34,680 nucleotides of DNA from the NCBI GenBank assembly GCA_017991475.1, contig JAGOQK010000008.1, positions 1 to 34,680 on the forward strand, written 5' to 3'. Made by a program: the position numbers and the translations under genes. The DNA is from Minisyncoccota bacterium. Lineage in GTDB: Bacteria > Patescibacteriota > Minisyncoccia > Phycocordibacterales > PALSA-1337. The notes beneath the pieces are model-generated. The model was not told the DNA's origin, did not search any database, and saw nothing but the letters and a program-made list of their open reading frames with translations. Below are positions 2,440 to 34,011 of this stretch, piece after piece. Each line of letters begins with the position of its first letter. The first letter of the stretch is position 1.

Positions 2440-2941
2440 ATTTCCTAGTAGGAAATTTAAGGGCGTATGGTGGATGCCTTGGCTAGAAAAAGCGATGAAG
2501 GACGTGGCGTGGCGGCGATACGCTTCGGGGAGGTGCCTAGCAACCTTTGATCCGGAGATGTCCGAATGGGGAAACCCCATCAGGTATAACCTGATGACCG
2601 ACGCAGCAATGCGCGGAGCGTACCCTGGGAAGTAAAACATTTCAGTACCAGGAGGAAAATAAACAAACATGCATTCCGTCAGTAGCGGCGAGCGAACGCG
2701 GAGAAGACTAAACTTATTGTAGCAATACAATGAGGGTTGCGAGGCAGAGACGTGCCATTTATGGCAGAGAAGTTATCAAATCTTTTGTTAGCTTGATGAG
2801 CTGGAAAGCTCGACCCTAGCAGGTGATAGTCCTATAAGCGAAAACACAAGATCTTCTTTGTTTCTGTTCTCAAGTACCCCGGGACACGAATAGCTCGGGG
2901 GAATCCGCCGGAACTAACCGGCAAGTCTAAATATTTTTCTA

Positions 2942-2981
<40 letters not shown>

Positions 2982-3036
2982 CAGCCCGGAAGGGCGGTGA
3001 AATAGATCTGAAACCATATGCCTACAAGGAGTCGGA

Positions 3037-3175
3037 GCGGTCATCACACGGGGTGTGATGACCGCAAGTCAAAGGTCAAAATTCAAAGGTCAAAATTTAG
3101 TCGCATGTGCGATTCCATTTTGCATTTTGCATTTTGCATTTTGATTTGCGGTCATCGTGCATCGCGCGATGACCG
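3037..3175 (+). repeat. H25 expansion: heptamer element 3 between two copies of a GCGGTCATC hairpin
   Basis: Where E. coli 23S has the short helix 25, this gene has three consecutive hairpins. The first (3037-3065) is GCGGTCATC.../GATGACCGC. The middle one (3066-3147) has arms of 7-bp words (AAGTCAA, AGGTCAA, AATTCAA against ATTTTGC three times) capped by TCGCATGTGCGA. The third (3148-3175) is GCGGTCATCG.../CGATGACCG. The outer hairpins share stem sequence, as if the element had been inserted into a hairpin that was then duplicated. It is probably retained in, or trimmed from, the mature rRNA. Confidence 0.75.
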
Positions 3176-5186
3176 TGACGGCGTGCCTATTGAAGAATGA
3201 GCCAACGAGTTTATGCAAGCTGCTCGACTAAGGACGAGAGTCCGGAGTCACAGGGAAACCGAGTCTGAACAGGGCGCTCGTAGTTTGCATAAGACCCGAA
3301 GCCAGATGAGCTTGCCACGCGCAGGGTGAAGTTCGCCGAAAGGCGAATGGAGGCCCGAACCGTTTAGCCGTGCAAAACTATCGGATGACGTGTGGTAAGG
3401 AGTGAAAAGCTAATCGAATCTGGTAATAGCTGGTTCTCTCCGAAAGAACTTTTGGGTTTGCGTCAGATGTACCTCTGTGGGGTAGAGCACTGGAAGGTCT
3501 CGACAGGTCGAAAGACCGCGAGACCTATCAAACTCCGAATACACAGAGTCATTATCTGGCAGTTAGTCTGTGGGGGCTAAGCTCCACTGGACAAAAGGGA
3601 AACAGCCCATGATCTCTATTTAAGGTCCCTAAATTGACGTTAAGTGCGCTTAAGGTGGTGAAATTTCTTTTACAATGAGGATGTAGGCTTAGAAGCAGCC
3701 ATCATTCAAAGATAGCGTAACAGCTCACTCATCGAGAAATTTCGCGCCGCAGATAATCGGGGCTAAAACGTCGTACCGAAACTGAGGACTGAATGATACT
3801 TCGGTATTATTCATTGGTAGGAGAGTATTCGCACTGCGATGAAGGTGAAGGGGTGACCCACACTGGAGCGCTGCGAAGTAAGAATGTTGGCACAAGTAAC
3901 CGCAATGCGGGTGAGAATCCCGCACGCCGAAAAATCAAGGTTTCCTTGGCAATGTATATCAGCCAAGGGTTAGTCGGTCCTAAGGGGATGGCGAACGCCG
4001 CACCCGATGGATACATGGTTAATATTCCATGACTTTTGTTTATTGCGATGGGAGGACGAAGTGTAGTATGTTCTGCGCATTATGGATTTGACGTTCGTAT
4101 TATAAGGATGGGTCCTGGTAAATCCGGATCCTGCTTTCAATGGTGGTTCCAAGTAATATGAAAATCTTTACCTTCGGGTAGGGGAATAAAACAAAGCACA
4201 CTTCCAAGAAAAGTCTCTAAGCATAAATAAACAAAAACCGTACCGCAAACCGACACAGGTGATTAGGTCGAGTAGACCTAGGCGAACGAGTGAGTGGTCT
4301 CCAAGGAACTCGGCAAAAAAGCAGCCGTAACTTCGGAATAAGGCTTGCCCTTTGTTAACTCAAGGGGCCGCAGCTAAAGTATCTCTGGCAACTGTTTATC
4401 AAAAACACAGCTCCCTGCGAACTCGTAAGAGGAAGTATAGGGGGTGACACTTGACCAATGCGAGAAGGTCAAATAACGGCGTTCTTATGTCGCAAGATGT
4501 AAGGGTGACTGTTATAAGCCCTCGTGAATGTCGGTCGTAACTATAACGATCCTAAGGTAGCGCAATTCCTTGTCGGGTAAGTTCCGACGCGTTGAATAGT
4601 GTAATGACTGGAGAACTGTCTCGGAGACCAGCTCGGTGAAAATACAATACCGGTGAAGATGCCGGTTACCTGCAGTTAGACGAAAAGACCCTAGAAGCTT
4701 TACTGTAATTTGATATTGACCATACGTTCTTGATGCGTAGCGTAGACGGTAGGATTTGAAGCGTCCCTTTCGGGGGGCGTGGATCCGACGATGAAACACC
4801 GTTCTTTAAGCATGTATGTTCTAACCTCGGCGGAATAAACGCCGGGAGACAGTATCTGATGGACAGTTTTAGTGGGGCGCTATCCTCCTAAACAGTAACG
4901 GAGGAGCCTAAAGGTCAGCTAGCCGTGAATGGAAACCATGGCGATAGTGTATGGGCACAAGCTGGCTTGACTGCAAGACGTACGTGTCAAGCAGACGCGA
5001 AAGCGGAGCCAAGTGAACCGACCATTCGCATTAGATGCGGTGGAAGATTATCGGACAAAAGCTACTCTAGGGATAACAGGCTAGTTCCGCCTAAGAGTTC
5101 ATATCGACGGCGGAGTTCGGCACCTCGATGTCGGCTCACCACATCCTGGGGGTGGAGAAGCTCCCAAAGGTTTGGCTGTTCGCCAA

Positions 5187-5218
<32 letters not shown>

Positions 5219-5642
5219 TCAGAAAAAGGAGAGGTATGAGATAGGAGATATGAGCCATGATTGTTGCAACTGCGATTTTCGTATCTCATAGCTCTTATCT
5301 CATATCTCCTGTTCTGGGCAGTCTGAATCACTTCGAGAAACTTTTCGTGAAATAGTCATATCGGGTCCTTTAAGCCCGGTGTGATAACAGATGCAAATTC
5401 CGATCGAGCGCACAGAAATGCGCTTGTGAGGATGAGGAATGATCAATCAACCACGGCGGTCGCATAGAGCAATCTATGTTGATCAAGTCGATTAGTATCG
5501 GTGGAGTCCATTTAAAGTGGATGATACCGAGGGAAGGTTACGAATAATAATCACCCGTAGAGACTAAACATCGACGTTCCATATTCAAGGGGAATAGGGA
5601 ATAAGCTATAGTCCAATGCACAAAGTAATTTGTGGTAACATG
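5219..5642 (+). ncRNA. Group I self-splicing intron at 23S position 2593
   Basis: The exon sequence AGACCGT|CGTGAGACAGG is continuous in other bacteria but is split here after the U equivalent to E. coli U2593. P1 is visible: exon bases 5209-5218 pair with 5318-5327 (one C/A mismatch), placing the splice-site U5218 opposite G5318. P7 is recognised from AGAGACTAAACA (5560-5571) and AAGCTATAGTCC (5603-5614), close to the group I R and S motifs. The last intron base is G5642. The length is 424 nt, with no homing endonuclease ORF. Heptamer element 4 occupies the P1 loop. Site L2593 is a known group I intron position. Confidence 0.88.
5228..5310 (+). repeat. Heptamer-arm hairpin element 4 (in intron P1 loop)
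   Basis: Arms made of 7-bp words of the ATGAGAT/AGGAGAT type on the left and ATCTCAT/AGCTCTT on the right, with a cap containing TTGCAACTGCGA. It lies wholly between the 5' splice site and the internal guide sequence of the group I intron. Confidence 0.75.
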
Positions 5643-6013
5643 CGTGAGACAGGTTGGTCTCCTATCTGCTGTAGGCGTTGATACTTGAGGGGCTTTGACT
5701 CTAGTACGAGAGGACCGAGTTGAACGAACCTCTGGTCTACCTGCTGTCCTGCCAAGGGCACCGCAGGGTAGCTAAGTTCGGACCGGATAACCGCTGAAAG
5801 CATATAAGCGGGAAGCCGACCCCAAGATTAGGTATCGTTGAGACCCGTAAGAGATGATTACGTTGATAGGCTTTAGGTGTACGCACCGCAAGGTGTTGAG
5901 CCGTGAAGTACTAATCCGTCGATCTTACTAGGAACTCTGAACGTCGCTTGTGTGATACGATAAATACATCATTTTACTGATATTTGAGATATGTGAGCAG
6001 GATCGAATCCTGC

Positions 6014-6124
6014 GTTCTGGTGATTTGGCGCTATGGCAACACCCGTTCCCATTCCGAACACGGAAGTGAAACATAGTTGCGGCGATGATAGTCCTACGGG
6101 GCGAAAGTAGCTTGTCGCCAGAAC
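6014..6124 (+). rRNA. rrf: 5S ribosomal RNA
   Basis: About 110 nt with the conserved CCCATTCCGAACACGGAAGTGAAAC core. Terminal helix TCTGGTG/CGCCAGA closes near 6016-6022 and 6116-6122. A perfect 10-bp flanking stem ATCGAATCCT (6002-6011)/AGGATTCGAT (6127-6136) looks like a maturation stem. GCAGGAT/ATCCTGC at 5997-6013 could form a competing local hairpin. No tRNA lies between 23S and 5S. Confidence 0.95.
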
Positions 6125-7982: not shown

Positions 7983-9143
7983 ATGGATTCACTCCCAATC
8001 AAATCATCCTCCTATAGGCTTTTCGGCGCAATCCGCCGTGGTATGGACTGGTGGATCATTGGTGCCGCAGTACCTATTCTGTTCGCAGGCCTGATGACAA
8101 TGTATTCGTTCACAGGTGACAATTCATTTGCGAGCAATCAGTTTGTCTGGATTCTTGTTGCAATTGCAGCCTTTTTCATTGTAAGTTCGATCGATGCACG
8201 ATTCTTGAGAACAACATGGGTATCAGTTGGTGTATTCGGTGTTTCGTTTACGCTCTTGGTCATTCTTTCAATTCTTGGAAAAGTTGTGAATGGTGCGCAA
8301 GGATGGTTTGATCTCGGTACGTTTTCTTTCCAGCCCTCTGATTTCGCGAAGATAGCATTGATTATTGTGCTTGCGAAGTACTTCTCTCGACGTCATATCG
8401 AGATCGCAAATGTAAGGCATATCATTGTATCAGGGCTGTATGCATTCGTACTTTTTACACTTGTCCTCCTACAGCCGGATCTCGGTTCTGCCATGATGAT
8501 TTTCTTCATATGGCTCGGTATGACCATAGTTTCGGGTCTTTCCAAGAAACACTTGTTCGCCATGCTCGGTATCGGACTCGTAGCATTCATCCTGCTCTGG
8601 AGCTTCGGATTCAAAGAGTACCAAAAGGATCGTATCCGTAACTTCGTCGACCCACTCTCGGACATTCACGGTGCGGGCTACAACGCGTATCAGTCTACTG
8701 TCGCAGTAGGATCAGGGGAAATGTGGGGTAAGGGACTTGGATATGGCACGCAGTCGCGCCTCAAGTTCCTCCCGGAGTATCAGACTGACTTCATTTTCGC
8801 GGCATTTGCCGAGGAATGGGGATTTGCTGGGGTCGTTATATTGTTCGGTCTTTATGGAATAATAATCTGGCGCATCATCCGTAACGCGATGTATGGAGCG
8901 ACAAATTTTGAAATATTGTTCAGCGCAGGGGCGGCAGTCTTCTTCATCGTGCATATCGCAATCAATGTAGGCATGAATATGCAGTTACTTCCTGTTACGG
9001 GAACGCCGCTTCCGCTCATGAGTTATGGTGGAACGCATCTCCTGACGGAGTTCATTATTCTCGGTCTTGTCGTATCGATGCGTCGATACTCCCGTGGTGC
9101 ACATCGTGATGCGGTCAACAACGAATTTATTGGGCCGCAGTAA
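7983..9143 (+). CDS. rodA: Rod shape-determining SEDS protein RodA (FtsW/RodA/SpoVE family)
   Basis: SEDS peptidoglycan glycosyltransferase that polymerises lipid II together with a class B PBP. 386 residues with about ten TM helices. Family blocks are present: 'FSFQPSDFAKIALI' (about 114-127), 'LLQPDLGSAMMI' (about 161-172), the large extracellular loop with 'FVDPLSDIHGAGYNAYQS', 'FAAFAEEWGFAG' and the signature 'GTPLPLMSYGGTHLL' (about 340-354). Its length is like RodA rather than the longer FtsW. No PBP2 or MreB gene is in the window. It probably has its own leaderless promoter. It converges on the GT4 gene across cruciform 9152-9276. Confidence 0.93.
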   Translation: MDSLPIKSSSYRLFGAIRRGMDWWIIGAAVPILFAGLMTMYSFTGDNSFASNQFVWILVAIAAFFIVSSIDARFLRTTWVSVGVFGVSFTLLVILSILGKVVNGAQGWFDLGTFSFQPSDFAKIALIIVLAKYFSRRHIEIANVRHIIVSGLYAFVLFTLVLLQPDLGSAMMIFFIWLGMTIVSGLSKKHLFAMLGIGLVAFILLWSFGFKEYQKDRIRNFVDPLSDIHGAGYNAYQSTVAVGSGEMWGKGLGYGTQSRLKFLPEYQTDFIFAAFAEEWGFAGVVILFGLYGIIIWRIIRNAMYGATNFEILFSAGAAVFFIVHIAINVGMNMQLLPVTGTPLPLMSYGGTHLLTEFIILGLVVSMRRYSRGAHRDAVNNEFIGPQ

Positions 9144-9151
9144 AGGTGGTA

Positions 9152-9276
9152 TAAACCGCCGCGCAGGGAGGCATGTGTGCTCCTGCTGTGACTTCGTTGT
9201 ATTTGTACACTACTCTTTGGCGAACCGTTCTGCGAAGCCACGGCAGGAGCACACATGCTCCCTGCGCGGCGGTTTA
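9152..9276. repeat. Long cruciform with conserved apical loop, copy 1
   Basis: Between the convergent stops of rodA and the GT4 gene. Two arms of about 45 bp (9152-9196 and 9233-9276) are reverse complements except for one 1-bp bulge and two mismatches. They enclose a 36-nt loop beginning TTGTATTTGTACACTAC and ending GCGAACCGTTCTG. The same loop, with two substitutions, tops a hairpin with different arms at 29242-29376. The loop itself contains a TGTACA palindrome and a GAAC-C-GTTC inverted repeat. No T-run follows, so this is not a typical intrinsic terminator. Confidence 0.9.
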
Positions 9277-9278
9277 GT

Positions 9279-10409
9279 TTACTTATAGATAGCTTCGACG
9301 CCGTTCACCATTTTCTCGAGAGAGAATTTCGTCGTTACGCACTCCTTGAGAGCGACTCCGTATTTCTTGCGCTCATCTGGATGCTCGATCATGAATGAAA
9401 TCGCGTGTGCAAGTTCGCGGATATTCTTGGGTTGGACGAGGACACCCGAGCGCATATCCTCGATAACATCAGGGATGCCGCCGACTGTGGTCGCGACGAC
9501 CGGGAGGGATGCTGCACCAGCCTCTAGGATGACGTATCCCAGGGCTTCCTTGATAGAGGGTAAGATGAACAGGCTAAATGCTTTGAGAAGTTCTGAGGCA
9601 TTATCTACGTATCCTGTCAGATAGACATGTTGTTCCAGTTTCTTCTCCTTGATCAACATATTGAGCATAGCCTTGTCCTGTCCATCGCCCATGATTACAC
9701 ATAGTGCATTGGGATGGTCTTGTATGATCGATTCCATGGAATGCAAGAGATGGATGAGTCCCTTGTTGGGGTGGAGCTCTGCTATCGTACAGAATGCAAA
9801 TCGTTTCGAGAATTCAGGCAAGCTAATGGCGAGCATCTTTGCGACCGTCTGCTTGGCCCCGTCGATAGACATGAATATCGGAGATTGTATGCCGAGTGTC
9901 ACAAGCTGCAACTTGTCTTTTGTGCCAGGGAAGTAGAGTGTCTGGCGCAGTTCGCGTTCTGATATGAGTACGGTGGTGTGAGTGAGGATCATAGTGATCC
10001 ATGAGGCGAATGCTATCAGAGCGCGCTGGTGGAATGGACGCTCTTCATTGAATGCCCATCCATGGACAGTGTAGATGATCTTTGGGACTCGAAGAAGTCT
10101 GCCTGCAAGCGCGCCGAGGCCGGCTGCCTTGGGGCTGTGCAAGTGAAGCACATCGGGTTTGCGATGCCTGATGATCGAGAATATCTCTTTGAATGAGCCA
10201 GCATCCCTGCTCGGAGATATATCTCTCTCGAGTCCAGCTATTGAGTGCGTGAATATGCCCCGATCTTCAAGCCTCTTCCTCAAGATACCGTCTCCGCCGA
10301 GCGCAACTGCCACGTCGTGTCCGCGCTCTTTCATGGATGTTGCAAGGTCGAATACGTGCCTCTGTGCACCGCCCCAATTGGACTTCGTGATGACGTAGAG
10401 TATCTTCAT
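9279..10409 (-). CDS. Family 4 glycosyltransferase (GT-B fold)
   Basis: 376 residues from the ATG at 10409, where the sequence begins MKILYVITKSNWGGAQRHV, the usual GT4 N-terminus with the acceptor-side GGAQ loop. Residues about 1-185 form the acceptor domain, with 'DVLHLHSPKA' and 'YTVHGWAF'. Residues about 200-376 form the nucleotide-sugar domain, with 'IAELHPNKGLIHLL', 'VIMGDGQDK', 'VYLTGYVDN' and the E-x7-E motif around 'SIKEALGYVILEAGAASLPVVAT'. Donor and acceptor are not deducible. The divergent neighbour is a sugar-phosphate transferase, so both probably build one polyprenyl-linked glycan. Longer in-frame extension upstream of 10409 is judged not coding. Confidence 0.9.
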   Translation of the reverse strand: MKILYVITKSNWGGAQRHVFDLATSMKERGHDVAVALGGDGILRKRLEDRGIFTHSIAGLERDISPSRDAGSFKEIFSIIRHRKPDVLHLHSPKAAGLGALAGRLLRVPKIIYTVHGWAFNEERPFHQRALIAFASWITMILTHTTVLISERELRQTLYFPGTKDKLQLVTLGIQSPIFMSIDGAKQTVAKMLAISLPEFSKRFAFCTIAELHPNKGLIHLLHSMESIIQDHPNALCVIMGDGQDKAMLNMLIKEKKLEQHVYLTGYVDNASELLKAFSLFILPSIKEALGYVILEAGAASLPVVATTVGGIPDVIEDMRSGVLVQPKNIRELAHAISFMIEHPDERKKYGVALKECVTTKFSLEKMVNGVEAIYK

Positions 10410-10415
10410 GCAGTA

Positions 10416-10424
10416 AAAATACCA
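10416..10424 (-). promoter_or_regulatory. Extended -10 of the GT4 gene (leaderless)
   Basis: On the minus strand, TGgTATTTT (10424-10416) is followed by 6 nt and then the ATG at 10409. Confidence 0.5.
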
Positions 10425-10512
10425 CACCTTCCGTATTTTCACCACGAAATAGAGGACTATAGCAAAAATACTATTTTTATTGTACAATCCACGCACTATA
10501 CGTGCAACCACC

Positions 10513-11847
10513 ATGGTCACTGCCATACACAAGAAGGAGCCAATAATACTCGCTATCGGGGATGTCGCCATGCTCGTTGTATCCCTTGTCATCGCGCTCG
10601 CTATCCGTTATCGAGAGATTCCTTCAGAGGGGCTTATCGAAGCGCATGCGTTGCCGTTTGTCATCATATTTGTGTATTCGATAGTTGCTTTCTACATATC
10701 TGGACTCTATGGACGCATGATATCCCTTGCGCGATCTTCGGTGCCGGGATCTATCATTCGTGCCCAAGTTGCCAATGGTCTCATTGCGGTCGCGTTGTTC
10801 TATTTCATACCGACCTTCAGCGTCACGCCGAAAGTAAATTTATTTATCTATCTTGGTTTGTCCATCTGTCTGCTTATCATCTGGAGACTTAGCACCTACT
10901 CGTTGTTCTCTTTGCGCAGGAAGGCCCCCGCGCTTGTCATAGGGGTGGGTGATGAGGTCAACGAGCTCATCAGCGAGATGACATCGAGCCAGAGGATCGC
11001 TATGTATTGTGCCAAAAAGGTCGATCCCAAAGATCAGGTAGCATTGACCGAGGCGATAGGAGACGGCTCCCCGACATTCCAATACATCGTTGCCGATGTC
11101 AACGATCGGCATTTCGAGGCCGCTTTGCCGGAGTTGTACATGAGATTTTTCAAGCAAGCGAATATTATCGATCTCCAGGAGCTCTATGAAGAGGTTTTCG
11201 ATCGTATTCCGCTCTCGCGCATGAATTATGTGTGGATCATGACGCATGTGAGCTCGGTTTCTCCAGTATCGTATGATGCCCTCAAGCGAGGCGTTGATAT
11301 TATTCTTGGTGGGATTATCGGAATCGTGGCGCTCATCCTGTATCCATTTGTTGCTACAGCTATAAAGCTTGAGGATGGAGGCTCGATATTTATTTTCCAG
11401 GAACGCGTCGGTAAGAATGGTAAGCCCATCCGCATTTACAAGTTCAGGAGTATGCAGAGGAATGAGTCTGACAAATGGATTGCTGAGGGTTCGAATAATC
11501 GCGTGACGAACATCGGTCACTTCATACGCAAAACTCGTATCGACGAGTTGCCGCAAGCCCTCTCGATACTCAAAGGCGACATGTCTCTCATAGGTCCGCG
11601 CACTGACGTGAATGGGCTGGCTGATCGGCTTCAAAAAGAGATTCCATATTACTCGGTGCGCACGGTCATCAAGCCGGGCCTTACTGGGTGGGCGCAGGTC
11701 AATCAAGAGAAGCCGCCGCAATCCGTCGAGGAAACCAAGATTCGCCTCTCATACGATCTTTATTACATCAAACATCGTTCGATCAGCCTCGATTTTCGCA
11801 TCATACTGCGTACGATCAGGACCGTGTTGTCCCGCGGGGGCATGTAA
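10513..11847 (+). CDS. Polyprenyl-phosphate hexose-1-phosphate transferase (WbaP/PglC superfamily)
   Basis: Initiates glycan assembly by moving a sugar phosphate from UDP-sugar to undecaprenyl phosphate at the inner face of the membrane. From ATG 10513 it has 444 residues: four N-terminal TM helices (about 10-130), a divergent cytoplasmic domain (about 130-255), then the bacterial sugar-transferase domain. That domain starts with the re-entrant helix 'VDIILGGIIGIVALILYPF', followed by 'FQERVGKNGKPIRIYKFRSM', 'KTRIDELPQALSILKGDMSLIGPRTDV' and 'GLTGWAQVN'. DELPQ and GPR are intact, but the usual GPRP is GPRT here. TACAAT at 10483-10488 gives a leader of about 18 nt. It is divergent from the GT4 gene. 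Confidence 0.92.
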   Translation: MVTAIHKKEPIILAIGDVAMLVVSLVIALAIRYREIPSEGLIEAHALPFVIIFVYSIVAFYISGLYGRMISLARSSVPGSIIRAQVANGLIAVALFYFIPTFSVTPKVNLFIYLGLSICLLIIWRLSTYSLFSLRRKAPALVIGVGDEVNELISEMTSSQRIAMYCAKKVDPKDQVALTEAIGDGSPTFQYIVADVNDRHFEAALPELYMRFFKQANIIDLQELYEEVFDRIPLSRMNYVWIMTHVSSVSPVSYDALKRGVDIILGGIIGIVALILYPFVATAIKLEDGGSIFIFQERVGKNGKPIRIYKFRSMQRNESDKWIAEGSNNRVTNIGHFIRKTRIDELPQALSILKGDMSLIGPRTDVNGLADRLQKEIPYYSVRTVIKPGLTGWAQVNQEKPPQSVEETKIRLSYDLYYIKHRSISLDFRIILRTIRTVLSRGGM

Positions 11848-12978: not shown

Positions 12979-14343
12979 ATGTTAAAACACCGCGCACGAG
13001 CAATCATGCTCCTGATTTTGGCCGCAGCAGTCGGTTATTTCGTTTATTCATCGCAACAGCCAGGAGGATCAAGACCTTTCCGTCTAGGTCTCGATCTTTC
13101 GGGAGGCACACACCTCGTTTATAAGGCAGACGTTTCCAAGATCGCAGAGTCCGACATATCAGACTCGATGTCGTCGCTTCGTGATGTCGTCGAGCGCCGC
13201 GTCAACATGTTCGGCGTCTCAGAGCCTCTCGTACAGACAGAGCAGGCCGCAGCCCTCTCATCCAAGGAGAGTGCCTACAAGCTCATCGTAGAGCTTCCAG
13301 GGGTCACTGATGTCGATGAGGCTGTTAAGTCTATCGGAGCTACGCCTGTCCTCGATTTTAGGCTGGTAACTGCAGATGCAATGCGTGAGTTTGAGATCAA
13401 GGCCGCATCATTCTCAAGTACCACAGGTCAGACGCTTGAGATCGAGTATCTTTCTCTATTCAAGGATACGGGCCTCACCGGGAGCATGGTCGCCAAGGCC
13501 AATCTAGAGTTCAATACTACGACCAATCAGCCTGTAGTCGGTCTCGTTTTCACCACGGAAGGTCGTGATCTTTTCTCGACAATTACCAAAGATAATATCG
13601 GCAACTATCTCGGCATCTTCCTCGATGGTGTTCCGATCTCTGTACCGGTCATCCGCGACCAGATTGCTGACGGTAGGGGACAGATCAGTGGCACATTCAC
13701 GCTCGATGAGGCCAAGAAGCTCGTCCGCGATCTCAATTATGGCGCGCTTCCCGTCCCGATCACATTGATCTCTACTCAAACCATTGGTCCATCTCTCGGA
13801 CAGGCAGCAGTGAATGGGGGTATCAAGGCGGGCATCATATCCTTCTTGGTCATCGCAATCTTCCTTATCGTTTGGTATCGACTCCCAGGTGTCGTCGCTG
13901 TCATCGCACTCGCAGTCTATACAATCATCATGCTTGCACTGTTCAAGCTCATTCCTGTTACACTCACTGCCGCTGGTATCGCTGCATTCATCCTCTCTAT
14001 CGGCATGGCAGTCGATGCGAATATCCTCATCTTTGAGCGCATGAAGGAGGAGCTTGCTCGCGGTCGTGGCGTCTGGGATGCTATGCATGAAGGTTTCGCC
14101 CGCGCATGGCTCTCGATTCGTGACTCAAATATCTCGAGTATTATCACTGGCGCCATCCTCTACTACTTCGGTTCCACTGCCGTCATCACCGGCTTCGCAC
14201 TTGTGTTCGTAGTTGGTGTCATCGTGTCTATGTTCACAGCTATCACTGCATCACGATTGTTCTTGTACGCGATCGCTCCGAGCAGAACGACGAAGTTCAC
14301 CACCTTCCTTATTAGTAATGGATTTATGAAATTCAAAAGTTAG
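12979..14343 (+). CDS. secD: Protein translocase subunit SecD
   Basis: Accessory membrane subunit of the Sec translocon that uses the proton gradient to pull exported proteins. 454 residues with one N-terminal TM (about 8-25), a periplasmic P1 domain and five C-terminal TMs. Family motifs: 'LGLDLSGGTHLVYKAD' (about 35-50), 'LNYGALPVPITLISTQTIGPSLG' (about 254-276) and 'SIGMAVDANILIFERMKEEL' (about 336-355), the last holding the conserved Asp of the proton path. Length is normal for SecD of Gram-positive or CPR type. secF follows after 107 bp, filled by hairpin element 5. Confidence 0.96.
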   Translation: MLKHRARAIMLLILAAAVGYFVYSSQQPGGSRPFRLGLDLSGGTHLVYKADVSKIAESDISDSMSSLRDVVERRVNMFGVSEPLVQTEQAAALSSKESAYKLIVELPGVTDVDEAVKSIGATPVLDFRLVTADAMREFEIKAASFSSTTGQTLEIEYLSLFKDTGLTGSMVAKANLEFNTTTNQPVVGLVFTTEGRDLFSTITKDNIGNYLGIFLDGVPISVPVIRDQIADGRGQISGTFTLDEAKKLVRDLNYGALPVPITLISTQTIGPSLGQAAVNGGIKAGIISFLVIAIFLIVWYRLPGVVAVIALAVYTIIMLALFKLIPVTLTAAGIAAFILSIGMAVDANILIFERMKEELARGRGVWDAMHEGFARAWLSIRDSNISSIITGAILYYFGSTAVITGFALVFVVGVIVSMFTAITASRLFLYAIAPSRTTKFTTFLISNGFMKFKS

Positions 14344-14450
14344 AATTCAAAATGCAAAATTGCAATGCAAAAATCAAAAGTTTCGCCGCAGCTGCAATAT
14401 CGCATAGCAAATCTTACTTTTGCATTTTAACTTTTAACTTTTAACTTTTT
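14344..14450. repeat. Heptamer-arm hairpin element 5 (secD-secF gap)
   Basis: Fills the whole secD-secF gap. Left arm words are AATTCAA, AATGCAA, AAATCAA; right arm words are TTTTGCA and TTTTAAC three times. The cap is GC-richer (TTTCGCCGCAGCTGC... ATCGCAT). The right arm ends directly at the secF ATG. Confidence 0.8.
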
Positions 14451-15341
14451 ATGTGGGTCATCAAATACAGAAAAATATTCTACGCGATTGCACTCATCCT
14501 TGTCGTTGGATCATTTGTATCCTTCGGTATCTGGGGTCTCAAGCCGAGCATCGACTTCACAGGAGGAACCCTCATTGAGGTCTCGTACGCTACCGGACGT
14601 CCTTCCCAGGAAGCTATTGTTATAGCGCTTGCTTCGATTGATTCCGCAGCATCTGTGCGTGCGGCAGGAACAGACGGGTACATCGTCCGTATGAAGCCTA
14701 TCAGTCAGGAAGAGAAAGCTGCGGTATTCACGGCGCTCTCACCCGATGCCGCCAACAAGGCTATCGAGAAGAACTTCTCATCTATCGGACCAGTGCTTGG
14801 CAAGGAAGCACTTCGTAAGTCGCTCATGTCTATCCTCTTCGTCCTGGTTGCTATCGTCTTGTTCATTACCTTTGCATTCCGCAAAGTATCTGAACCGGTC
14901 TCTTCATGGAAGTATGGCCTTATCGCCATCATATCTCTCGCGCATGACGTCATCATCCCGACTGGCGTCTTCGCAGTGCTCGGTCACTTCGCTGGATACG
15001 AAGTCGATACGCTCTTCATTACCGCACTCCTCGTAGTTCTCGGTTTCTCGGTGCACGATACTATCGTTGTGTTTGACCGTGTTCGCGAAAATCTTCGCCA
15101 TGCCGCAGCCAAGAAGCCGTTCGCAGAGATCGTAGGGGAGAGTGTCAGTCAGACATTTACTCGTTCGATCAACACCTCGATGACAACCCTTATTGCCCTC
15201 GTCGTACTCTATTTCGTTGGAGGTCCATCGACTGAGCATTTCTCACTTGCACTCATCATTGGTATTGCTGCGGGTACGTATTCGTCCATCTTCATCGGTT
15301 CACCGTTGCTTGTGACGATAGAGAAGTGGGGGAAGAAGTAG
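14451..15341 (+). CDS. secF: Protein translocase subunit SecF
   Basis: Partner of SecD in the SecDF complex. 296 residues. One N-terminal TM (about 7-27), then 'KPSIDFTGGTLIEVSY' (about 32-47), a periplasmic domain, and five TMs with the SecF signatures 'LGFSVHDTIVVFDRVREN' (about 197-214) and 'RSINTSMTTLIAL' (about 239-251). The start ATG directly abuts the right arm of hairpin element 5, with a pyrimidine/A-rich leader and no Shine-Dalgarno. It is presumably co-transcribed with secD. Confidence 0.96.
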   Translation: MWVIKYRKIFYAIALILVVGSFVSFGIWGLKPSIDFTGGTLIEVSYATGRPSQEAIVIALASIDSAASVRAAGTDGYIVRMKPISQEEKAAVFTALSPDAANKAIEKNFSSIGPVLGKEALRKSLMSILFVLVAIVLFITFAFRKVSEPVSSWKYGLIAIISLAHDVIIPTGVFAVLGHFAGYEVDTLFITALLVVLGFSVHDTIVVFDRVRENLRHAAAKKPFAEIVGESVSQTFTRSINTSMTTLIALVVLYFVGGPSTEHFSLALIIGIAAGTYSSIFIGSPLLVTIEKWGKK

Positions 15342-16310: not shown

Positions 16311-17872
<1,562 letters not shown>

Positions 17873-18125
17873 GAAACAACGTTGCTGTCTTTGACAGTGA
17901 CTTATAGTCGATAGTTTAGTAATCAGTAATTAGTAAACAGTAAACAGAATTGTCGCATTGCGATTCTTCTGATCTCAGTTTACTGATTACTGGTTACTAG
18001 ACTGAGTGATTGCCACACAACTCAAAATGGTGGCACTTAGTCCCCGAAGATAGGGGACACACATGGGTGATCTCAATTGAATCACTCATGGGCGAACGGA
18101 ACAAAATAGAGAGCGCTACTTCAAG
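17873..18125 (+). other. 16S trailer with heptamer-arm element 7 and 3' half of the processing stem
   Basis: No protein gene. Element 7 (17912-18001) has left words AGTAATC, AGTAATT, AGTAAAC, AGTAAAC and right words AGTTTAC, TGATTAC, TGGTTAC, with cap TTGTCGCATTGCGATTC. GCGAACGGAACAAAATAGAG... at 18092-18114 is the 3' partner of the pre-16S processing stem. No CCTCC-containing 3' exon is found here, so the missing anti-Shine-Dalgarno is not simply displaced downstream. Confidence 0.75.
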
Positions 18126-20463: not shown

Positions 20464-20539
20464 GCGCGCATAGCTCAGTTGGTAGAGCATTCGACTGATA
20501 CTCGAAAGGTCCTAGGTTCGACCCCTAGTGCGCGCACCA
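20464..20539 (+). tRNA. tRNA-Ile (anticodon GAT)
   Basis: Acceptor GCGCGCA/TGCGCGC, D arm with AGCTCAGTTGGTAGAGC, anticodon loop CTGATAC giving GAT, T arm CTAGG-TTCGACC-CCTAG, discriminator A and encoded CCA (20537-20539). The last 20 nt are duplicated 162 bp downstream. Confidence 0.96.
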
Positions 20540-20747
20540 GAAAACCGCCTTCAGGCGGTTTTTGTGCGCGCGCAAGCAAGTGCCCAATGGCACTTGCAGC
20601 TAGGGGTCGAAAAGGTTGAGTATATTTTCGAAGAATTTCATTCTGAGAAAATACGAAACCTGTACCGTTCCCGTAGGGAAAGACCCCTAGTGCGCGCACC
20701 AGAAAACCGCCTTCAGGCGGTTTTTGTGCGCGCGCAAGCAAGTGCCC
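20520..20747 (+). repeat. 66-bp perfect direct repeat of the tRNA-Ile 3' end plus terminator
   Basis: Copy A 20520-20585 and copy B 20682-20747 are identical over 66 bp: 20 nt of tRNA 3' end, the intrinsic terminator and a GCGCGCGCAAGCAAGTGCCC tail. They flank 96 bp (20586-20681) with no gene. That interval includes CTAGGGGTCGA (20602), an inverted copy of the T arm. The arrangement resembles attL/attR scars of tRNA-targeted integration, or a tandem duplication that later decayed. Confidence 0.9.
20541..20563 (+). terminator. Intrinsic terminator of tRNA-Ile
   Basis: AAAACCGCC-TTCA-GGCGGTTTTT starting 2 nt after the CCA. An identical copy lies at 20703-20725. Confidence 0.92.
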
Positions 20748-20804
20748 TGTAGCATGCGCCACTTTATATTGTATACTGTAGGTATATATCTAATCATTAC
20801 CTAC

Positions 20805-27862: not shown

Positions 27863-27880
27863 TGCGTTCATGTGTACACT
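27852..27880 (+). promoter_or_regulatory. Predicted leaderless promoter of murD
   Basis: TTGAAC (27852-27857), 17-bp spacer, TACACT (27875-27880), then 6 nt to the ATG at 27887. It overlaps the end of the preceding gene. Confidence 0.55.
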
Positions 27881-27886
27881 GTGCGC

Positions 27887-29236
27887 ATGTCATCCAAAGA
27901 CCATTTCAAAGGCAAACGCATTGCGCTTGTCGGCCTCGGTGCGCATGGTGAGATGGTCGAGGATGCGAAGTATCTGATCAAAGCGGGGGCATGGGTATCT
28001 ATCTACGATTTGAAAAGCGAAGCTCGCCTCAAGAGCGAGTTGCTCTTCCTGCGCTCAGTTGGCCTCGCCAACTATGTATGTGGGTCTATCCCTTCTGAGG
28101 ACCTGCTTGATATGGATATCATCATCTTGTCGCATGAATATCCGCGCAACTCGTCTTTTCTCCGGGGAATCGACGCACACAATCAGTATGCCGATGAGAA
28201 TAATAAAAAGAAGATCGCTATCGAATACCCCGAGACTCTCTTCTTCAAGCTTGCGCCGCCAGTCACTCTGGTCGGGGTTATAGGTCCATGCGGTAAGTCG
28301 ACAGTTATATCTATTCTCGGACCGATGCTCGAGCATGTCTGTGAGGAGTATGGAGGTCAGTCTCTTTTCGTCATTGACCCGGAATCGTCCGAGGGTGCTC
28401 TTGCGCACCTCAAAAAAGCGAAGAGTGGTGATATCGTGCTCATGCGTATGCCAGATGTTATTCTGGGCGAGCTTCATGCGATGCGCATCAGTCCTCACGT
28501 CGCGATATTCACGGGTGTACCAGGGAAGCAAGCATACAAGGAGTCACCATTTGAGATACTGTCGTATCAAACGTATAACAACTTTCTCGTCGCATCAGAT
28601 GAACTTGTCGATGTTGCGCGTTCAGGCTCGGCTCAGCCGCGCGCCAAGATGCTTCGCACCAAGCCGTCCATCATTCCGGCTGAATGGGGATTTGTAGGCA
28701 GGGGGCCGCATGATCGTGTCAATGCGGCGCTCGCTCTTCAGGCGGGAAAACTTTTCAAGCTCGACGATGATGCGGCGCACAAGATCCTCGGTTCATGGAA
28801 GGCTCTTCGTGGTAGGTTGGAGCTGGTTAAGAAAGTAAAGATGATCGAATTCTACAATGACACTGCATCGACCGCACCTGACGCAGTGCTCGCGGGCCTA
28901 TCGGCACTTTCGAAAGGTCATGATGTTGTGCTCATTATCGGGGGTGCAGATCTTGGGCATGATTATCGCACCTTGTACGCGGAAATCCCGAAGTATGCGC
29001 ATACGGTTATCATTTTGCCAGGGAGCGGAAGTATCCGCGAGCGCAGACTAATTCAGAGTATAGAAGGATCCACGGTCAAGGTTGCTCCTACCCTCGACGA
29101 AGCAGTCCTTCTGGCTACAGAAAGCGCACAAAAAGGGGATAAGGTACTCTTCAGTCCAGGCTTCGGCGCAGTTGGTGTTGATGGATCCAAGAAAGAGCGT
29201 GGCGAGAAATTCGTCCGTGCAGTGAGGGGATTGTAG
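27887..29236 (+). CDS. murD: UDP-N-acetylmuramoyl-L-alanine--D-glutamate ligase
   Basis: Adds D-Glu to UDP-MurNAc-L-Ala in the cytoplasm with ATP. 449 residues from ATG 27887; a GTG at 27872 is in frame but overlaps the -10. Three domains: Rossmann-like N-terminal (about 9-120, 'KRIALVGLGAHG'), central ATPase with P-loop 'GVIGPCGKSTV' (about 130-140), and C-terminal domain with 'EFYNDTASTAPDAVLAGL' and 'KVLFSPGFGAVGVDGSKKERGEKFVRAV'. The P-loop has GKST where most MurD have GKTT. The C-terminal '(D/N)DT.AT.PDA' block and 'ERG..F' favour MurD over MurC, MurE or MurF. It converges on a PLP enzyme gene across cruciform copy 2. Confidence 0.9.
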   Translation: MSSKDHFKGKRIALVGLGAHGEMVEDAKYLIKAGAWVSIYDLKSEARLKSELLFLRSVGLANYVCGSIPSEDLLDMDIIILSHEYPRNSSFLRGIDAHNQYADENNKKKIAIEYPETLFFKLAPPVTLVGVIGPCGKSTVISILGPMLEHVCEEYGGQSLFVIDPESSEGALAHLKKAKSGDIVLMRMPDVILGELHAMRISPHVAIFTGVPGKQAYKESPFEILSYQTYNNFLVASDELVDVARSGSAQPRAKMLRTKPSIIPAEWGFVGRGPHDRVNAALALQAGKLFKLDDDAAHKILGSWKALRGRLELVKKVKMIEFYNDTASTAPDAVLAGLSALSKGHDVVLIIGGADLGHDYRTLYAEIPKYAHTVIILPGSGSIRERRLIQSIEGSTVKVAPTLDEAVLLATESAQKGDKVLFSPGFGAVGVDGSKKERGEKFVRAVRGL

Positions 29237-29241
29237 GGAAG

Positions 29242-29376
29242 TCTAAATTCCCCACAAGGTGCGCAGCACATGCATTTCTGCTGCGGCTTCGTTGTATTTG
29301 TACACTACACTTTAGCGAACCGTTCTGCGAAGCCGCAGCAGAAATGCATGTGCTGCGCGCCTTGTGGAGATCTTTA
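29242..29376. repeat. Long cruciform with conserved apical loop, copy 2
   Basis: Between the convergent murD and PLP-enzyme stops, and including the latter's stop codon. Arms 29250-29291 and 29328-29369 pair almost perfectly (one T/C change giving a G-U pair), with CTAAA/TTTAG extending the base. The loop starts TTGTATTTGTACACTAC and ends GCGAACCGTTCTG, identical to copy 1 at 34 of 36 positions, while the arm sequence is different from copy 1 apart from the loop-closing CTTCG/CGAAG. Confidence 0.9.
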
Positions 29377-30255
29377 GTCACCACAAATCATACACACAAG
29401 CGCACCATCAATCTCATGGCCTGTGTACGCAGCTTTCATGGCTCCGGCGACAGAGAGCGCGCTGTTCGTAGACAGTTCAAGTCCTGTTTGTTCTCGGGTA
29501 AACTCGAGGGCAGCATCAATATCCTCGTTCGTCGCAATCCAGCCCGTGCCGCCAGTTGATTCGATGAGTGGGATGAGTGCGGACTTGCGTTGAGCTATTT
29601 GATCGACTATAGCATCGGCAATGGAGAGTTCGTCAGGACCGTCATATGCCTCGAATACTTCGGCCATAGGGTGGCACGAAGATGTCTGGACGATATGCAC
29701 TTGGATGGGGACATTCTTTTTGGAGAAATATGTTGCAAGCGCCTGAGCGGTCGTGCCAGAAGAGGTGCCAATAAATACCGCGCCAATGGCGTCTTTCTTC
29801 GATTCAGCGATCAATTCTTCAGCGAGAGATTCATAACCCTTGAGAGCGATGTCATCGGTCGATTGGCGGAGGCTGCGCATGCCATCTTGCGTTGCTTGGA
29901 TGAGTGCCTGGAGAGGACGCTCTTTCCTGAGGATACGGATACGTTCCGCGAGAGCGGGATCAGATATCGCGTTGCGGAGCCTGTCCAATTTTTTGTCTGA
30001 AATATGATTGCCTACGAACACATCGAGAAATGCGTCGGTAAGCTTGGAAATATGAAGCACCGCTGCAAACGCTGCGTTACCTGATGATGAGATGGCGAAG
30101 CGTCGTTCACCTTGTGCGTAATAGTGGTCGATCATCGGTGGTATGGATCTTCCTTTGTGAGAGCCATACGGATGAAGGTCTTCGCGCTTGAAATAGAGGG
30201 CGGAGACGCCTATTTTTGCTGCGAGCTTCGGATATGATTCGAGGGGTGTAATCAT
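29374..30255 (-). CDS. PLP-dependent fold-type II enzyme, threonine synthase-like
   Basis: 293 residues. 'LYFKREDLHPYGSHKGRSIPP' (about 21-41) carries the Schiff-base Lys in SHKGR, 'SSSGNAAFAA' (about 56-65) is the substrate-binding loop, and 'GTSSGTTAQAL' (about 162-172) is the PLP phosphate-binding loop. The order and spacing fit the tryptophan-synthase-beta fold type II family, with threonine synthase or cysteine synthase as nearest relatives. It is shorter than classical ThrC, and the true reaction is uncertain; no amino-acid pathway genes are adjacent. It could be a catabolic dehydratase or lyase. A Cys pair near the end ('VCMICGD') is unusual. Confidence 0.8.
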   Translation of the reverse strand: MITPLESYPKLAAKIGVSALYFKREDLHPYGSHKGRSIPPMIDHYYAQGERRFAISSSGNAAFAAVLHISKLTDAFLDVFVGNHISDKKLDRLRNAISDPALAERIRILRKERPLQALIQATQDGMRSLRQSTDDIALKGYESLAEELIAESKKDAIGAVFIGTSSGTTAQALATYFSKKNVPIQVHIVQTSSCHPMAEVFEAYDGPDELSIADAIVDQIAQRKSALIPLIESTGGTGWIATNEDIDAALEFTREQTGLELSTNSALSVAGAMKAAYTGHEIDGALVCMICGD

Positions 30256-33897: not shown

Positions 33898-34011
33898 ATG
33901 TAAAATTTAAAAGTCAAAATGCAAAAGTACAAGTTATAATTCAAAAGTTATCAGCGACGCAATTTTTACCTTTGAATTATAATTTTGCATTTTGACTTTT
34001 AACTTTTGATC
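33898..34011. repeat. Heptamer-arm hairpin element 9
   Basis: Best-paired member: two arms of about 47 bp with 7-bp words AAAGTCA, AAATGCA, AAAGTAC, ATAATTC and the complements GAATTAT, TTTGCAT, TTTGACT, TTTAACT. The cap is TTATCAGCGACGCAATT. It fills the gap between mraY and the arginyltransferase-like gene. Confidence 0.85.

Follow-up and report, generated by a model that had tools for sequence, protein, structure and literature searches.

Intergenic palindromes with conserved heads and changing arms make up a superfamily in small-genome bacteria

Two long hairpins are found in a 34,680-nt stretch of DNA, referred to here as the window, and each occupies the space between two convergent gene ends. 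The first lies between ftsW (7983-9143, + strand) and a group 1 glycosyltransferase gene (9279-10592, - strand). The second is flanked by a Mur ligase gene (27872-29236, + strand) and a gene for a PALP-family, PLP-dependent enzyme (29374-30255, - strand). The genes of the window are of the housekeeping type, no mobile-element gene was found among those scanned, and an Rfam scan of the window matched rRNA and tRNA only. Both hairpins belong to a family named W, and their parts are as follows.

9152..9276, + strand: W copy 1 (contig C4 of genome G000), a hairpin by pairing, fold energy and neighbour genes
9152..9196, + strand: left arm of copy 1, from sequence
9153-9173, + strand: outer left arm of copy 1, a 21-nt run free of T, from the outer-arm rule
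9197..9210, + strand: conserved loop segment 1 of copy 1, TTGTATTTGTACAC, the same in 9 of 9 G000 copies
9211..9224, + strand: variable loop middle of copy 1, 14 nt of constant length, 62% mean identity over 9 copies
9225..9232, + strand: conserved loop segment 2 of copy 1, CCGTTCTG, with one change over 9 copies
9233..9276, + strand: right arm of copy 1, by pairing and fold
29249..29370, + strand: W copy 2 (contig C4 of genome G000), a hairpin by pairing, fold energy and neighbour genes
29292..29305, + strand: conserved loop segment 1 of copy 2, by the W loop pattern
29320..29327, + strand: conserved loop segment 2 of copy 2, by the W loop pattern

Repeat finding places the inverted-repeat core of copy 1 at 9171-9196/9233-9258 and extends it to 9152-9276 across a one-base bulge; apart from this bulge, pairing over the whole span is interrupted by one A-C mismatch and includes one G-T pair. 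The arms of copy 2 were found in the same way at 29249-29291/29328-29370 (43 nt, 95% complementary, 36 nt between them), and their inner pairing, 29252-29291 with 29328-29367, comprises 40 bp with one G-T. Both copies fold at about -90 to -93 kcal/mol, compared with -38 to -45 kcal/mol for dinucleotide shuffles (z -11.7 to -15.6). None of 200 shuffles equalled copies 1 and 2, and the energy is low on both strands. A sequence-only reading of this DNA had reported two hairpin elements, and both are present, paired and far below the shuffles in fold energy. It had also counted loop identity between them at 34 of 36 positions, and two differences are indeed seen. Its description of the arms as different sequences, each self-complementary, is right about the pairing but not about unrelatedness: the arms are divergent homologues, alike in a CATGTG-like stretch and in the CTTCG/CGAAG that closes the loop.

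Other repeats are also present in the window. Six AT-rich imperfect palindromes (1945-2040, 3057-3156, 14329-14456, 17406-17514, 17913-18003 and 33902-34007) have words such as CAAAATGCAAAAGT and CAGTTATAAGTTGTCAGT in common, and appear to be a separate dispersed intergenic repeat, unlike the W elements. Two 73-nt copies (20520-20592 and 20682-20754) are 96% identical and 162 nt apart; each bears a terminator-like hairpin with a T-run, and the end of a tRNA gene (20464-20536) lies partly within the first. The 23S and 5S genes (2446-5932, 6016-6123) are located about 10 kb from the 16S gene (16311-17872) on the same strand, which makes this a split rRNA operon.

The genome that contains the window, G000, comprises 771 kb (0.77 Mb) in 17 contigs and is 94.8% complete. 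A search at one mismatch or fewer finds the 36-nt loop at five places in it, and a covariance model built on these five copies recovered four more in which the loop middle has diverged. The pattern TTGTATTTGTACAC-N14-CCGTTCTG, with 0-1 mismatch, is found exactly nine times in G000, a count that may miss more diverged copies and is far above chance given zero matches of the reversed-pattern control. All nine copies are intergenic, with a loop of exactly 36 nt and near-perfect paired arms of 37-45 bp. They occupy convergent pairs, divergent gaps and tandem gaps; the last include the gaps that follow a penicillin-binding protein gene and an ORF read as leuS, and one next to a thioredoxin-like gene. 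The earlier observation was right, and the family is larger than the window alone could show; a lack of further copies, or arms in them that do not pair, would have refuted that reading, and neither is the case.

The loop is not invariant over 36 nt, as had been thought from the two copies of the window. Its fixed positions number 22 only (14+8): over the nine copies the 14-nt segment is 100% identical and the 8-nt segment 97%, compared with the mean of 62% for the 14 nt between them. Arm segments are 49-68% identical. In an alignment of five W copies, pairing holds in 99.2% of cells; of 26 pairs, 17 have changed on both sides, and only one change is one-sided; none of 500 shuffles was as good in the pattern of both-sided change. 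The earlier proposal that selection holds the fold and the loop, not the stem, is therefore borne out for the fold and for compensated stem change, and for the loop only in part (22 positions). Since these 22 positions are unchanged while the loop middle and the arms have diverged, the W head reads as selected and not merely young.

Sister families first came to light in the DNA that follows ftsW in congeners, where other long hairpins are found. When three such heads served as BLAST queries, each had multiple scattered copies in G011, G028 and G032, and relatives were found in G026, G010, G021 and others. A palindrome scan then covered stretches of genomes (160 kb of G003, 378 kb of G021 and parts of others). 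The W' family of G021 has a loop of 36-39 nt and is related to W, to which it is linked, as read by eye, by loop length, the arm word ATTTTC and the loop sequence TGTACAYTACAC. The B family (G021, G028, G010 and G015) has a 63-nt head, and the head of the A family (G032, G026, G028 and others) is a three-way junction. Several families may coexist in a genome: W', B and A in G021, A and B in G028, and W and A in G000. Heads are alike within one genome and unlike between genomes. Very small genomes are thought to contain little dispensable DNA, in contrast to the density in G021, where such a palindrome occurs roughly every 10-15 kb of scanned DNA. The 160 kb scanned of G003 contains almost none.

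Compensated change is also seen in family A, where 17 of 29 pairs have changed on both sides and 98% of cells pair, with none of 500 shuffles as good. Members were found with a superfamily A model in 18 of 247 genomes of the order, among them two in G000 (C17:51768-51857, L176, and C14:27436-27525, L194), each a long hairpin whose head contains two small ones. The matches include two genomes from another genus of the same family; several read as long hairpins of this kind, and the weakest are doubtful. The superfamily as a whole belongs to one genus of bacteria with small genomes, and less similar relatives occur in other parts of the order.

Two further families look like ordinary inverted repeats with conserved arms, of MITE-like appearance, and are kept apart from the superfamily. 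Family C consists of about 20 near-identical elements of ~170 bp in G011 (L088, L097, L103, L108 and L113) with the ends AGAGCCCATCCACCATCT / AGATGGTGGATGGGCTCT, and several contigs terminate within copies; it is probably an ordinary MITE-like burst. Family D of G021 (L149:886, L152:6740, L158:19467 and L159:6425) has 37-bp conserved arms, GATGCAAATACGCAAATG..GCGAATGACGCGAAT, around variable loops of 31-33 nt, the W-family pattern reversed.

A common plan emerges from 69 elements of the W, W', A and B families: near-perfect arms, a head conserved within the genome, and arms that diverge away from the head. Their median length is 123 bp (interquartile range 120-126). The arm cells comprise 2124 Watson-Crick pairs, 17 G-T, 18 A-C and 34 others; the scanner favours well-paired arms, so that the paired percentage is biased upwards, while the G-T/A-C ratio is unbiased. 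Selection on one strand as RNA would favour G-T over A-C, and the arms show no such preference. The lack of a wobble preference on either strand is what upkeep of complementarity in the DNA itself would predict. The suggestion of a small structured RNA, made in the sequence-only reading, thus receives little support from the arms. The A heads, with 8 G-U cells and no A-C cells, do give a hint of function on one strand, as RNA or ssDNA.

The divergence of the arms can be followed in pairs of elements within a genome whose heads are at least 93% identical. With rising distance from the head, arm identity falls through 0.82, 0.77, 0.57 and 0.51 in family A and through 0.86, 0.68, 0.65 and 0.57 in family B, compared with 0.39-0.49 for a control of unrelated pairs. 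For instance, three copies in G032 (L163 8184, 8696 and 11866) and two in G021 (L127 14534 and 19548) have nearly the same heads and unrelated outermost arms, and the arms of each copy are still complementary. Some pairs (L110/L115) retain similar arms, so that the two arms may drift rapidly in step or the outer arm may be renewed. Gene conversion of heads is a possible third origin of like heads on unlike arms.

The ftsW/glycosyltransferase junction was compared across species, with one genome per species. It is free of an element, with a gap of -17 to 48 bp, in G006, G008, G009, G015, G016, G028, G029, G030 and G031. In G000 it holds the W element (gap 135), in G032 an A element (gap 159), and in G002, G014, G018 and G024 other long palindromic structures. 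The junction itself thus requires no element, and several unlike ones occur there. A junction that is empty in some species and variously filled in others would fit gain by insertion; no insertion is visible directly, since each species is represented by one genome and the DNA of congeners is more than 20% different, which puts the flanks too far apart to align. Target-site duplications at the elements are no commoner than in shuffled pairings.

Searches beyond the carriers gave no further W elements. An exact 17-mer of the loop had 25 matches in 85,000 genomes and viral contigs, none with the remaining loop or a comparable hairpin, and these are chance matches. The W loop was absent from 146 relatives; weak matches to the loop core in G172, G185 and G189 have no such hairpin and are about as frequent as reversed-pattern controls. 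B heads were not found elsewhere in the order, in a sample lacking the known carriers, and the tested motifs gave nothing beyond chance in phage, plasmid and viral collections. As for a mobiliser, Y1 transposase (PF01797) is present in some carriers and absent from G000 and from G026 (99% complete), and reverse transcriptase is absent from G021 and G026. Both enzymes were rejected as mobilisers because the distribution of their genes does not match that of the carriers.

Each element is laid out with a conserved asymmetric head at the tip (a 36-nt loop in W, a three-way junction in A, 63 nt in B), an inner arm particular to its family and an outer arm that changes quickly. The best explanation is that they are non-autonomous palindromes, comparable to REPs and MITEs, and that they spread or act as folded DNA hairpins recognised by their heads; the whole chain is given a probability of about 0.5. 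The functional form would be a folded ssDNA hairpin, for example on the lagging strand or as an extruded cruciform. A trans-acting factor would recognise its head, and the elements would spread as passengers. DNA synthesis may fold back so that one arm templates the other; the arms would stay complementary because changes in one are copied across, and the head would be held by selection during this turnover. A hairpin recognised as ssDNA is also the best of the three functions proposed in the sequence-only reading, as yet unproven. Dead passengers should show decay of the head; the nine W heads are intact, which counts against this explanation and also fits a host function.

The outer arms have a property of their own. 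T makes up 7.5% of their outer 13 nt, read inward, and 30% of the 14 nt that adjoin the arm on its outer side (p about 1e-50, with positions counted as independent). No more than one T is found in these 13 nt in 42 of 56 elements, where 3.5 would be expected. The bias is seen in all four families, while other palindromes of the same DNA contain 21% T. On the opposite side, the 3' arm is A-poor and pyrimidine-rich. One idea is that an arm of three letters would not form internal folds, and that each arm would thereby pair with its partner alone. Such arms could also mark a new class of mobile or self-renewing DNA hairpin in which head and inner arm are inherited and the outer arms are rewritten at each site, with T excluded from the 5' arm, by a novel enzyme or replication process; this is considered unlikely. 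Other accounts of the outer arms were also examined. Plain copying of the target flank is disfavoured, as the arms are T-poor and the flank is not. A model in which copying stops at the first T was rejected by eye, since in most cases the base adjoining the arm is not T. As guides to other genome sites, the arms found no matches except the 18 arms themselves.

Alternatively, the elements may work at the RNA level as 3'-end elements, either bidirectional terminators or mRNA-stabilising hairpins with a head bound by an RNA-binding protein. Coding sequences do end close to the arms, with a median gap of 15 nt and many gaps between -9 and +15, and the last bases of a stop codon sometimes lie inside an arm (in these simple ORF calls stops are exact and starts uncertain). 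The A-poor, pyrimidine-rich 3' arms would suit transcript release both ways, long dsRNA stems would suit RNase III, and the G-U cells of the A heads point the same way. However, no T-run of at least 5 was found within 12 nt of any of 138 stem ends, the longest being 4 and most 1-2. The 60 elements with a classified gene setting divide into 30 tandem, 18 convergent and 12 divergent, the tandem ones being 17 sense and 13 antisense, close to random, and no strand or gene-orientation rule was found among the 60. The same convergent junction is element-free in many species, the window has ordinary terminator-like sequences (20520-20592), and such a role needs no sequence-conserved head. The proposal of a bidirectional transcription end or RNA-stability module is accordingly disfavoured, and an RNA-level role is judged improbable.

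The elements have also been considered as host architectural or regulatory sites, kept because a chromosomal protein of the nucleoid, replication or segregation machinery binds the head in folded or duplex form. The nine W heads, kept while the remainder diverges, argue for such a role, as do heads that are uniform within a genome and different between genomes, as with a co-evolving binding protein. Yet families come and go among congeners, several occur in one genome, and element positions are not kept between species, which makes a host site rather improbable. If the elements are used by the host after all, they would point to a novel hairpin-binding factor. If they are mobile, they would represent a type of transposon whose identity mark is the centre and not the ends, and whose arms renew themselves. 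Either way, the species-specific heads offer a direct handle for a partner protein.

The elements are neither intrinsic terminators nor REPs nor standard MITEs. Rfam gave nothing above the gathering threshold for them, only sub-threshold matches to miRNA precursors, in keeping with the earlier remark that no named element has this form, and literature searches brought up no account of them in this bacterial group. Intergenic palindromes of ~120 bp with a conserved head and variable arms are thus a superfamily for which no earlier name or catalogue entry was found.

ERIC elements have a size near 127 bp. Along with Correia, RUP and the Rickettsia palindromic elements, they are prokaryotic MITEs, which are small, intergenic, multi-copy and hairpin-forming, and whose terminal repeats are conserved and often accompanied by a target duplication (PMC10969869). 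The elements described here are likewise short, non-coding, intergenic, multi-copy and hairpin-forming. Could they be ordinary MITEs, internally deleted DDE transposons with terminal inverted repeats fused round a short centre? Size, location, copy number and palindromic form are all MITE-like (PMC10969869), and MITE-like families with conserved arms occur nearby (C in G011, D in G021). However, with a conserved centre and ends that are their least conserved part, they are a terminal-repeat element reversed; they also have no target duplication, and outer arms are unlike between copies with near-identical heads. An ordinary MITE is very unlikely on these grounds.

REPs are 20-40 bp long, with a GTAG or CGTC tag and a recognisable stem sequence (PMC8266576, PMC3733652), and TnpA-REP recognises their folded ssDNA hairpin through the loop and stem irregularities (PMC8266576). 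The elements resemble the REP/RAYT system as dispersed intergenic palindromes, and the model of ssDNA-hairpin recognition is borrowed from it. They differ in their size of ~123 bp, near-perfect arms of changing sequence (37-45 bp in W) and heads of 36-67 nt. Mobilisation as REP/BIME elements by RAYT (TnpA-REP, a Y1 transposase) would fit such hairpin recognition (PMC8266576) and species-specific pairing of element and enzyme, but is largely refuted by carriers that can be without any Y1 transposase (G000 and G026), by stems far longer than those of REPs, and by the lack of a common GTAG/CGTC-type foot in the flanks and arms inspected by eye.

Two other systems vary the stem under a kept fold. 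Double-hairpin elements of fungal and algal mitochondria are mobile, and their stems reportedly vary in sequence under a constant fold. They resemble the present elements in this respect, with no sign of common descent, and are organellar and built of two adjacent short hairpins. The integron attC site is a folded single-stranded palindrome with a variable stem sequence and a kept structure. It keeps its outer ends and varies the tip, whereas the elements here keep the tip and vary the ends, which by inspection are not conserved, unlike attC R boxes. attC sits in cassette arrays, whereas the present elements are scattered among housekeeping genes. Finally, in quasi-palindrome template switching one arm of an inverted repeat templates the other (PMC7202029); it is a mutational process and not an element family, and is proposed here as the means by which the arms would be kept up.
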